Shown piece after piece: positions 1 to 41,261 of a DNA stretch of 53,072 bases (positions are counted from its first letter, which is position 1; the number at the start of each line of letters is the position of its first letter). The notes under the pieces are model-generated. The model was not told where the DNA came from. It ran no database searches and worked only from the letters and a program-made list of their open reading frames with translations. Source of the DNA: Ignavibacteria bacterium (GTDB lineage: Bacteria > Bacteroidota > Ignavibacteria > Ignavibacteriales > Melioribacteraceae); contig JAAYAN010000048.1 in assembly GCA_012719345.1 (NCBI GenBank), forward strand, positions 1 through 53,072, written 5' to 3'. Both the position numbers and the translations under genes were made by a program.

Positions 1-315
1 ATTTATCGGGGAATTTTTAATTCTAAATTTTGAATGAAAAACAAAGCAGAGCGCATAGCGGAGACCGGAAACAGGGTAAACGGCAAAAGGTAAAGGGTTT
101 TTAAAATCTTACTCTTGAACCTTACTCATACTCTTTTCCCGTATCATTTAACCCTTGACCTTTACAAATTAAATCAATAATTTTCCGTCAGGCATCTTGG
201 AAGTCTTTTTTGCCTGTAAAACTACAAAACAATTATGTGAAAGGAATAATTACAAAACGGTACAGAGTTAAGGGGGATTATAACAGGGCAGTTTGGCGGT
301 GAATATTTTTTCCGG
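1..315. other. gene-free stretch with degraded repeat sequence
   Basis: I see no convincing gene here. The first ~36 bases resemble the distal part of a ~70-bp repeat that occurs twice more (1634-1703 and 3902-3970); they share a CGG-A-rich start, a T run and the string AAATTTTGAATG. The rest is low-complexity sequence, including a purine-rich AAAGGTAAAGGGTT stretch and a roughly complementary ACCCTTGACCTTTAC stretch about 70 bases later. An open frame starting with TTG at 293 runs into the tandem array and is treated as non-coding. Confidence 0.5.
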
Positions 316-567
316 TTTGGTACACCGGCACAGTTCGGGTATAACATATTTCAAACGAAGTATTATCTGCCACACTCAGGTAACGTATTTGGGTCCAAAA
401 AGTATTATCCGCCACGTGCGGCGAGCGGCACTTTGGCAAAAAAGTATATCCCGCCGCGTGCGGCGAGAGTATATTTCTTTAAAAAGTATAACCCGCCACG
501 TATGGCGGACAATGATTTCTGCAAATATTATACCCCGGCACGTGTGGCGGGGTTTGCAAATTCGGGC
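316..567. repeat. tandem array of six 42-bp units with a palindromic core
   Basis: Units start near 316, 358, 400, 442, 484 and 526. Units 2 to 5 begin with AAGTATNAY, then a GC-rich core of the type CCGCCACGTGCGGCG (inverted symmetry around CACGTG), then a variable AT-rich tail. The first unit is the most diverged. Because 42 is a multiple of three, the array reads through as a 14-residue repeat in one frame (RHVRR-like), and that explains the open frame from 293 to 718. It lies directly upstream of the G+C-rich gene at 696 and could be a regulatory or recombination element. It is not a CRISPR: the non-core part is only ~15-20 bp and the whole unit drifts. Confidence 0.75.
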
Positions 568-648
568 ATATTTTAATGAAACTGATTCAAATAGAGCGAT
601 TGTGAGCCAAAAACAGGGTATTGTGTTGTATTATTCAAATAAAAGGGC

Positions 649-667
649 TATATGGACTAACCATATA
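649..667 (+). promoter_or_regulatory. hairpin in the leader of the 696 gene
   Basis: TATATGG-ACTAA-CCATATA forms a perfect 7-bp stem with a 5-nt loop. It ends 18 nt before the AAGGAGG ribosome-binding site of the gene at 696. It could influence translation or mRNA stability; no function is shown by sequence alone. Confidence 0.4.
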
Positions 668-695
668 AATAAAAAACAAAAGATAAGGAGGCATA

Positions 696-1424
696 ATGCC
701 GTACAGAAATCTTCCTAACACGGATGCGGGTTTGGCTGCCGCTTTGCGTAAAGCTGACGAGCGCTGCAAAAACACCCCCGCCGGGTCAATTCCGTTTTCA
801 CCCGAAACACAGCAAAGAGTAAAAACATTCAGTTCTGTTTTCCTTAAGGAACTGGATGAAAGGGGAGGCGCGCTTGCAAATCAGGGCGAGGCTACCCGGT
901 TAAAAATGCAGTTTGAAGCGAAATGCAGGATGGCGGTTTCGCATTTCTTCCAAGTATTTAACTTAGGTGTTGCCCGCGAAAAGTATAAGGTAACAGAAAG
1001 GAGCTACTTCAAGTGGGATATTAATCAGGAAGCATTGCCGGCGCTTACAAACGAAGCGGATATTATTGCCGCAGCCGAAAACATAATTAACGGTGAAACG
1101 CTGAGAGTGGCTGCGGGCTGCGTTAAGATGCAAAATCCTTCGAGCGAAGAGGTTAAAGTTCATCTGGATAATTACACTAATTCAATTTCGAACCAGACTG
1201 CAAAGAAGGAAACTTATGAAAAGGAGCAGAAGGATGTTGATAAGCTGCGCGCCGAAGCTCTTGATCTGGTAACTGATATTTGGGATGAAACCGAGTTCAC
1301 TTACCGTAAGGATGCTGCTCCGCTTATGAGGCGTAAAGCCCGCGAGTTCGGGGTAGTCTACGCTCTGCGTCCCGGCGAACCCGAAGAACCGGAAGCACCT
1401 GCTGAAGGAACGGGAAAGAGTTAA
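696..1424 (+). CDS. conserved hypothetical protein, G+C-rich, charged and helical
   Basis: This 242-residue protein has no signal peptide or membrane segment. The N-terminal PYRNLPNTDAG motif and overall layout resemble, from memory, a Bacteroidota family of uncharacterised proteins that begin MPYRRLPNTDA. It looks mainly alpha-helical, with a charged coiled-coil-like segment (about 165-195, rich in K and E), an EFGVVYALRPGE motif near the end and a Pro/Glu/Ala-rich tail. The ATG is fixed by a near-perfect AAGGAGG ribosome-binding site 7 bases upstream, the strongest in this part of the window. Codon use is clearly more G+C-rich than the neighbouring genes, which suggests transfer or special expression. 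The upstream 42-bp array may belong with it. Function unknown. Confidence 0.8.
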   Translation: MPYRNLPNTDAGLAAALRKADERCKNTPAGSIPFSPETQQRVKTFSSVFLKELDERGGALANQGEATRLKMQFEAKCRMAVSHFFQVFNLGVAREKYKVTERSYFKWDINQEALPALTNEADIIAAAENIINGETLRVAAGCVKMQNPSSEEVKVHLDNYTNSISNQTAKKETYEKEQKDVDKLRAEALDLVTDIWDETEFTYRKDAAPLMRRKAREFGVVYALRPGEPEEPEAPAEGTGKS

Positions 1425-40839: not shown

Positions 40840-40855
40840 GTTTCTAAATTTCATT

Positions 40856-40929
40856 GCACCCGTAGCTCAATTGGATAGAGCATCTGACTACGGATCAGAA
40901 GGTTTGGGGTTCGACTCCCTACGGGTGTA
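40856..40929 (+). tRNA. tRNA-Arg (anticodon ACG)
   Basis: This 74-nt cloverleaf has acceptor GCACCCG/CGGGTGT (the first pair is G-U), anticodon stem TCTGA/TCAGA with loop CTACGGA (anticodon ACG, read as ICG after TadA editing), and T stem TGGGG/CCCTA with loop TTCGACT. CCA is not encoded. The tadA gene that edits this anticodon lies only ~330 bases downstream. Confidence 0.95.
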
Positions 40930-41057
40930 CTTCTAATAATGAAGAATTAAGAGTTAATAATTAAAAAGAGATTGGTAATATCTCTGATTTAATAAAATAT
41001 CAAAGAAATTCTACAATAATTATTACTTATTCATTATTAATTTTTAATTATGTTCCT

Positions 41058-41130
41058 GCGCCCGTGGCTCAATGGATAGAGCATCAGATTCCGGTTCTGA
41101 GGGTTGAAGGTTCGAGTCCTTCCGGGCGTA
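41058..41130 (+). tRNA. tRNA-Arg (anticodon CCG)
   Basis: This 73-nt cloverleaf has acceptor GCGCCCG/CGGGCGT (first pair G-U), anticodon stem TCAGA/TCTGA with loop TTCCGGT (anticodon CCG), and T stem GAAGG/CCTTC with loop TTCGAGT. CCA is not encoded. It lies in the second unit of a tandem duplication with the ACG gene. Confidence 0.95.
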
Positions 41131-41261
41131 CTTCTGTAATGAATAATTAAGAGTTAATAATTAAAAATGATTGTTAATAGATACGCTGTTTTTAATTAGA
41201 ATTTCGAAGAAATTCCTCAATAAATTCTTAATTATTACTTATTAACTTTTAATTGAAATTT

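Follow-up and report, generated by a model that had tools for sequence, protein, structure and literature searches.

A 42-bp tandem array of imperfect dyads 5' of a gene for a predicted all-helical protein in an Ignavibacteria genome

The window analyzed here, a stretch of 53,072 nucleotides from an Ignavibacteria bacterium, is an entire contig of a 4.0-Mb genome assembled in 323 contigs. Close to its beginning lies a 42-bp tandem array, and 128 bp separate the last unit from the start of gene 696 (positions 696–1424, + strand), the gene directly ahead of which the initial annotation had placed the array. In the window, TRF reports the array at 396–550 with 3.7 copies and 71% matches, and autocorrelation over 240–600 exceeds 0.38, among lags of 5–139, only at 42 (0.486) and 84 (0.444). 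Four well-kept units of 42 bp start at 400, 442, 484 and 526 (together 400–567), as defined by TRF, aligned rows and profile matches; two decayed 42-bp units, starting at 316 and 358 (316–399), align with them in register, and a probable further decayed unit at 274–315 continues the register, judging from the rows and from short repeats at spacings of 209 and 250. (The array, its units and its dyads are given without strand.) A profile that was itself built with these units matches the window at 409–486 and 450–525. The six 42-bp units proposed initially are thus real as an array with a 42-bp register, but only four of them are in good condition.

The same four units carry the GC-rich near-palindromic core, which had been ascribed to every unit and is missing from the other two of the six. 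With up to three mismatches, the core pattern CCGCCACGTGYGGCG has four sites in the window, each of them inside the array; counting both strands there are six matches against 0.15 expected from shuffles, and none of 100 shuffles reached six. The idea that the cores are centered on CACGTG did not survive, because this hexamer is found only in the 400 and 526 units, the other two good units having CGCGTG and CACGTA, and it is not conserved as a sequence. Between the four good units, pairwise identity is 0.82 in the core versus 0.42 in the tail, and GC content is 0.81 versus 0.31. The core forms a dyad (dyad A), located by the core pattern and a register scan at 409–424 in the 400 unit (CGCC-ACGTGC-GGCG), at 451–466 in the 442 unit and at 493–508 in the 484 unit (CCGCC-ACGTAT-GGCGG); in the last unit it lies at 532–553, with 10-bp arms that are 90% complementary (inverted-repeat pair I7 and the register scan). 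An example of a second, A+T-rich dyad (dyad B) is found at 430–445, with its axis 21 bp from that of dyad A (column 33.5, counted from 0, of a unit starting at 404). A separate inverted repeat with 7-bp arms, TATATGG-ACTAA-CCATATA, can be read from the sequence at 649–667, immediately ahead of the gene 696 ribosome-binding site.

A relaxed form of the unit pattern finds no other site in the 4.0-Mb genome to which the window belongs; a stricter two-core pattern was uninformative because it fails to match the window array itself. Among the matches listed, the array profile gives one weak match in this genome (G000), at C190 (E 0.008), and blastn of 270–590 against 97 relatives returned short matches only, the best foreign one at E 0.0036. 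Elsewhere in the window, two tRNA-Arg genes (anticodons ACG and CCG) lie in a 201-bp tandem duplication at 40855–41254.

Gene 696, delimited from the list of open reading frames, a homologue profile and a structural model, encodes 242 residues and belongs to an unnamed family. Its product has no above-chance match in Pfam, NCBIfam or PHROG, and Y1_Tnp is absent both from its own Pfam matches (E up to 1) and from those of 12 family members (E up to 0.1). At E 1e-5 the gene is unmatched in 72,556 plasmid records and in a phage collection. PADLOC matches at 0.0035 and 0.0066 were taken as coiled-coil noise. The AlphaFold2 model, made with 45 sequences (pLDDT 92), consists of helices only, save for two-residue strand stretches, with long helices at residues 36–93 and 150–202 and a low-confidence tail. 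Foldseek returned no match to this model at E<=0.001, and the best VIA-align result (Z 8.2, over the long helices) is within the tool's stated noise for helical bundles; by these two comparisons of the model, the protein appears to have no convincing fold relative. A six-homologue profile run over the genome collection identified at least 485 encoding stretches, of which 80 were listed. The family is nonetheless rare in the window's class (4 of 391 genomes) and in a sample of the phylum (6 of 395 genomes at E<=1e-20). It occurs in Bacteroidota, in Ignavibacteria and in one verrucomicrobial metagenome bin, and the carrier genomes are mostly metagenome bins, apart from Draconibacterium orientale.

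The pairing of array and gene extends beyond the window. Within one clade of the family, which we call the array clade, an array lies 5' of the gene in 23 of 28 loci. These 28 comprise 20 loci with a TRF array of period 41–43, three (L058, L063 and L065) where TRF reports no such array yet 42 is the best among lags 20–64, four without an array (G034/L006, L060, L199 and L201), and L062, where just 228 bp of sequence is too short to judge. TRF arrays were thus found on the 5' side in 20 of the 25 array-clade loci scanned; their period is 42 in 17, 43 in two and 41 in one, and their copy number ranges from 2.1 to 10.3. The placement is one-sided: within 650 bp, arrays of period 40–44 lie 5' of the gene in 20/25 loci and 3' in 0/24. 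At L199 there is a 21-bp repeat (1.9 copies), apparently 3' of the gene. In a tree of the family, drawn without L060, which has lost its start, and with L097 in place of the frame-broken L059 gene, a 100/100 branch separates a side with arrays in 23 of 27 rows from a side with arrays in none of 20. The array label requires 5 changes on this tree versus 15.8 for shuffled labels, and arrays seem to have been lost a few times within the array clade.

The carriers' own background gives a 0.6–3% chance of an array in a stretch of that size. Leaving out L060 and L062, arrays are found at 7/8 loci in G708 and at 16/18 elsewhere (13/18 by TRF alone), so the array-clade gene has an array far more often than this background predicts. 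Around 68 sister-type loci (425,683 bases), TRF found four arrays of 30–130 bp, none with a period of ~21n. Speaking against a clean split of the family, 42 is the best lag at five sister-clade loci (L081, L086, L118, L127 and L129; z 2.7–3.5, with about 1.6 of 72 expected by chance), none of which is a 42-bp TRF array. The suggestion that the array precedes homologues of gene 696 therefore holds for most of the array clade, but not for the distant part of the family and not for G034, a closest homologue (52% identity) of gene 696. The encoded proteins differ as well: the median pI is 5.8 among 23 array-clade protein cores (range 4.6–9.9; 7.7 for the window product), and 14 sister-clade cores have pI values of 7.7–9.4, mostly about 9.2. 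As a rule, then, the array-clade product is not basic.

What is shared among the gene-linked arrays is not their sequence. Among 21 such arrays, only two of the 210 pairs reach a score of at least 40, and both are recent paralogue pairs. G708, with eight family genes, has seven arrays of six distinct sequences; its other 20 array pairs score at most 19, the value that shuffles reach at their 99th percentile. A few cross-genome pairs (L061 with L063, L066, L067 and others) score 22–24, where the shuffled maximum is 23, in line with a common GCATGC-like core. Gene-linked arrays thus keep their 5' position and a near-constant period, and their letters are private to the locus.

They also keep symmetry. 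Eight arrays align without gaps over 42 columns once set by the GCATGC-like core. Over 420 cyclic hairpin registers (mean 0.325, sd 0.066), the A dyad is the best, with a mean of 0.68 over the eight arrays, and the next distinct register, at 0.60, lies exactly 21 bp away; only this B axis is independent, because the A register served to set the units. Dyad axes 21 bp apart are two helical turns apart, which upholds the earlier claim about helical phase. Whole-unit self-complementarity of 21 arrays, compared jointly with shuffles, gives a Fisher p of 6e-8, although paralogous arrays are not independent, and the view of the units as dyads is sound for the set as a whole. Singly, with TRF consensus units, the dyad is significant in 10 of the 21 and not in the other 11 (L059, L061, L066, L069, L071, L187, L194, L195, L196, L197 and L198). 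For the window unit p is <0.0005 with aligned units and 0.008 with the TRF consensus. Aligned units also give p<0.0005 for L063 and L066, the latter depending on register (p 0.55 with the TRF consensus). When whole arrays are folded, often into a single long hairpin, one strand or both reach z <= -3 in 9/10 cases; L061 does the opposite, folding worse than its own shuffles on both strands (z +3.7 and +0.9). The expected retention of the core while the tails drift is seen in the window and, clearly, in four of eight arrays (the window, L063, L066 and L067), but core and tail are about equal in L057 and L069, and the core is the worse kept in L059 and L061. Overall, period and symmetry are much less free than sequence in the gene-linked arrays.

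Arrays of this kind are not exclusive to the gene. Among the matches listed, the array profile finds other sites in G706 (three), G710 (three, one of a single unit), G707 (one) and G712 (one), and TRF calls six of the eight as arrays of 42 or 84 bp; G713 has a 21-bp array of 23 copies with a weak profile match. Random stretches of seven carriers, read de novo, contain 22 intergenic arrays of period 42, 63, 84 or 126 (±1) in 1,389,020 bases, that is, 22 of the carriers' 28 intergenic arrays of 30–130 bp, where intergenic means outside any clearly longer open reading frame of at least 120 residues. Fifteen of these orphan arrays come from G708 and none from G713. Eight gene-free relatives had no such array in 700,000 bases (p 1.6e-4 versus the carriers, and p 0.046, 7 versus 0, when G708 is left out), in a comparison of groups unmatched for lineage: two carriers contributed 400 kb, five 100–189 kb and the gene-free genomes 80–100 kb each, and G705, where the homologue is array-free, was counted with neither. 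Arrays of period ~21n were likewise absent from 0.08 Mb of other gene-free loci. A class-wide search with an array profile (R1) gave 4 of 382 genomes, a circular result because three of the four are carriers in the model; in the fourth, G056 (E 5e-4), TRF finds no array.

The orphan arrays are flanked by unrelated genes in all orientations, some of them convergent. Since same-period arrays occur at unrelated sites, some between convergent genes, the arrays as such do not require a role in the gene's expression. The initial annotation had held that binding-site arrays would be unlikely if the array occurred at unrelated sites and its core decayed as fast as the tails; same-period arrays do occur at unrelated intergenic sites, and the comparison of core with tail is mixed. 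Orphans resemble the gene-linked array of their own genome in 7/144 pairs (score >=40), versus 1/528 across genomes, where four of the seven pairs involve loci chosen with a model from the same arrays and three come from random samples. In one orphan, L244 (13044–13703), two things stand beside the array: a short stretch that resembles, by eye and at a tblastn E of 0.097, the beginning of a family gene, and a gene for a secreted protein, the start of which shares 84% identity with the gene 3' of the L194 copy; the array end holds units that, by eye, are like those of L202. From its sequence, L244 is judged to be a decayed copy of array and gene, not an array that jumped. An origin of L244 by excision of the gene from L194 was considered and rejected, because L244 keeps the gene-start stretch and has its downstream gene in common with L194. 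Beside the other orphans there is no gene remnant at E<0.05. Genes for Y1_Tnp proteins are present in 11 of 12 carriers. Among the matches listed, compared by eye, no Y1 gene comes closer to a strong array match than the Y1 transposase gene at G707:C201:22776–23117, which is 2.9 kb away from a locus with array and gene; in G710 a weak array match (E 0.11) lies 0.9 kb from a Y1 gene.

In the window, two + frames are open over 358–573, one of them over 274–573. The frame at 250–576 (+ strand), which ends in TAA at 574–576, indeed reads as the 14-residue repeat described in the initial annotation, but coding is unsupported beyond part of the arrays, and the frame, which holds no open reading frame of at least 60 residues with an ATG, GTG or TTG start, was judged to be no gene. 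The same judgment was made of a second open frame (293–718, + strand; 141 residues from a TTG, in the list of open reading frames), which overlaps the start of gene 696 and has no Pfam match. At least one + frame is open across 9 of 12 arrays, and all + frames are closed in L061, L063 and L071. As a protein query, the frame over 250–573 gave matches at E<=0.1 in 23 of 294 class genomes (best foreign 0.004). TRF was applied to 19 of the foreign loci and called a 42-bp array in none; one of these loci, L038 from the class relative G159, has at 2572–2802 a 48-bp tandem array with the palindrome CCGTCCCGGAGGGACGG.

Signals of a transcribed element are similarly sparse. Counted over whole units on the gene-sense strand of 21 arrays, mismatches are G.T, which an RNA would accommodate, in 35 cases versus A.C, which it would not, in 38, and the better-folding strand is + in 9 arrays and - in 12. 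In the A stem alone (41 units, those of one array not being independent) A.C outnumbers G.T, 36 versus 15, an excess that could hint at a minus-strand RNA. With three of 12 arrays lacking an open + frame and neither strand favored overall, peptide repeats and a one-strand RNA both seem unlikely. A terminator between array and gene was rejected as a rule, the scan (loops of 3–8) having found no terminator-like site in 23/23 loci; the last unit of L064, a hairpin followed by T5, is terminator-like by eye and falls outside the loop range of the scan. Rfam gave one match at gathering score in nine loci, a tRNA, and three matches far below gathering scores in window positions 1–1000, the best of which spans the array and is to a plant microRNA model, as a long hairpin would give.

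We found no description, in openly available papers, of a 42-bp array paired with such a gene, but several known systems share parts of its layout. As described in the portions covered of two reports, REP elements with their REP-associated tyrosine transposases (RAYTs) and REPINs consist of intergenic palindromic repeats, with one set beside a single gene (PMC2817692, PMC3116915). To that extent the present locus is similar, with palindromic intergenic repeats next to one gene and apparently cognate copies dispersed in some genomes (among the matches listed, G706, G707, G708, G710 and G712; in G000 the pattern occurs at the gene locus only, and the profile adds the weak match at C190). It differs in that the repeats form 42-bp head-to-tail arrays on the 5' side only, so that, as far as tandem arrays of period 40–44 are concerned, the flanking of the gene by two inverted palindromic repeats that marks REP/RAYT was not found; in that the gene 696 product has an all-helical model and no match to the Y1 (HuH) transposases; and in that many orphans are unrelated in sequence to the gene-linked array. 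Iteron and operator arrays, as in plasmid replication and partition sites, likewise place direct repeats at whole helical turns 5' of a gene, as here, but gene 696 is unmatched in plasmid records, its unit sequence differs from locus to locus and the product is, as a rule, not basic. Type III toxin-antitoxin loci, among which TenpIN is also counted, are a further comparison. In ToxIN and CptIN, tandem repeats of 36 and 45 nt lie 5' of one gene, repeats and protein co-vary and, in the part of the source covered, ToxN and CptN have a twisted beta-sheet core (PMC4627078). Tandem repeats directly 5' of a gene are what the array-clade loci show too; unlike in those systems, the units are dyads that favor neither strand overall, terminators are generally lacking, the protein model is without the beta-sheet fold described for ToxN/CptN in that part of the source, and a sister clade is array-free. 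The locus thus resembles both REP/RAYT and type III toxin-antitoxin systems in layout, and each fails in at least one defining feature that was tested. Finally, BrickBuilt, a minisatellite-MITE of Porphyromonas gingivalis, forms intergenic tandem arrays at several genomic sites; in the portions covered it has a 23-nt unit of one sequence family with leader and tail, and no partner gene is named (PMC4596501). Several intergenic tandem arrays in Bacteroidota genomes are common to both cases, but units here are of 41–43 bp, with private sequences and a partner gene, unlike BrickBuilt as far as those portions describe it.

How might these observations be explained? We tentatively favor, at somewhat less than even odds, the possibility that the array is a DNA-level cis element of the gene-696 locus, a dyad platform coupled to the gene. 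Quasi-palindromes of 42 bp, with axes every 21 bp, would form this element 5' of the gene, the spacing keeping the dyads to the same side of the helix. The capacity of each unit to fold back would let slippage or unequal exchange remove, add and homogenize units a whole number of helical turns at a time, with the result that sequence drifts and length and symmetry stay. The run of dyads may be a platform, either nucleoprotein or cruciform, by which the gene's expression is set; alternatively, it may be bound by the gene product or by a co-varying partner. The initial suggestion of a binding-site or cruciform array is kept in part: the array consists of dyads with axes every two helical turns and is tied to one gene, but the product is not basic as a rule. 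Against a platform, 11/21 arrays have no significant dyad of their own, L061 folds worse than shuffles, and G034, L199, L201 and L060 have no array. Another explanation is a neutral minisatellite, made up of quasi-palindromic hairpins and 42-bp slippage, whose link to the gene would be mere descent and which would be abundant in slippage-prone genomes. The 22 intergenic ~21n arrays in 1.39 Mb of seven carriers, with unrelated neighbors in any orientation and 15 of them from the single genome G708, are as this explanation would have them, as is the variation in gene-linked copy number from 2.1 to 10.3. We nevertheless consider it somewhat unlikely, because the arrays are 5' and not 3' (20/25 vs 0/24), far above the genomes' own background, and because position is kept although sequences differ between loci, as is the period, 42 in 17/20.

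A further explanation is akin to REP/RAYT: a trans-acting protein, either the gene product or a Y1 transposase encoded elsewhere, would spread or maintain cognate arrays, and the gene-linked one would be the source copy. Orphans do resemble the gene-linked array of the same genome more often than those of other genomes (7/144 vs 1/528), the profile finds further arrays in G706, G710, G707 and G712, none were found in 0.70 Mb of eight gene-free relatives, and 11/12 carriers have Y1_Tnp genes. Yet the product is modeled as an all-helical bundle without a Y1 match, arrays are on one side of the gene only, the nearest Y1 gene to a strong match is 2.9 kb away among the matches listed, L244 looks like a decayed array-gene copy, and the pattern search turned up no cognate orphan in the window genome; we regard this explanation as unlikely. 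Highly improbable, in our estimate, is a type III toxin-antitoxin-like locus, in which the array would be transcribed and cut into RNAs of ~42 nt that neutralize the protein. Its layout of tandem repeats 5' of one gene, in 23/28 array-clade loci, the private repeats per copy in G708 and the hairpin with T5 in L064 are suggestive, but pairs in 21 arrays have no overall strand bias, the scan found no terminator-like site in 23/23 loci (L064, by eye, aside), the all-helical model has no core like the beta-sheet that the covered part of PMC4627078 describes, and family genes in 20/20 sister rows are array-free. That the array encodes a protein of 14-residue repeats can hardly be entertained: 42 is a multiple of 3, and 9/12 arrays, including the window with two frames open over 358–573, have an open + frame, but L061, L063 and L071 are closed in all + frames, periods of 41 and 43 occur, the dyads are left without explanation, and the longest window frame has no ATG, GTG or TTG start giving an open reading frame of 60 residues or more.

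Returning to the cis element that we favor, a functional pairing would mean that a gene family is accompanied by a DNA array that is free in its letters but conserved in length and symmetry. It would offer a testable case of selection acting on DNA geometry, namely helical phase and dyads, and not on sequence, and a handle on an uncharacterized protein family with at least 485 encoding stretches. A bolder idea, which we think quite unlikely, is that the array-clade gene supplies one component of a machinery by which 42-bp (2 x 21 bp) dyad arrays of any sequence are made or kept, first on the 5' side of the gene itself and then genome-wide. Such a protein would be a length-and-symmetry ruler for DNA, in place of a sequence-specific partner, and carriers would be recognizable by private arrays of one period.

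At L060, positions 1380–1500, the N-terminal part of the gene copy seems, by eye, to have been replaced by array-like DNA. Among loci of the sister type (L072–L140 without L097), 10 of 68 have tandem repeats of 7 or 14 bp, differing in sequence, within 80 bp of the start codon.
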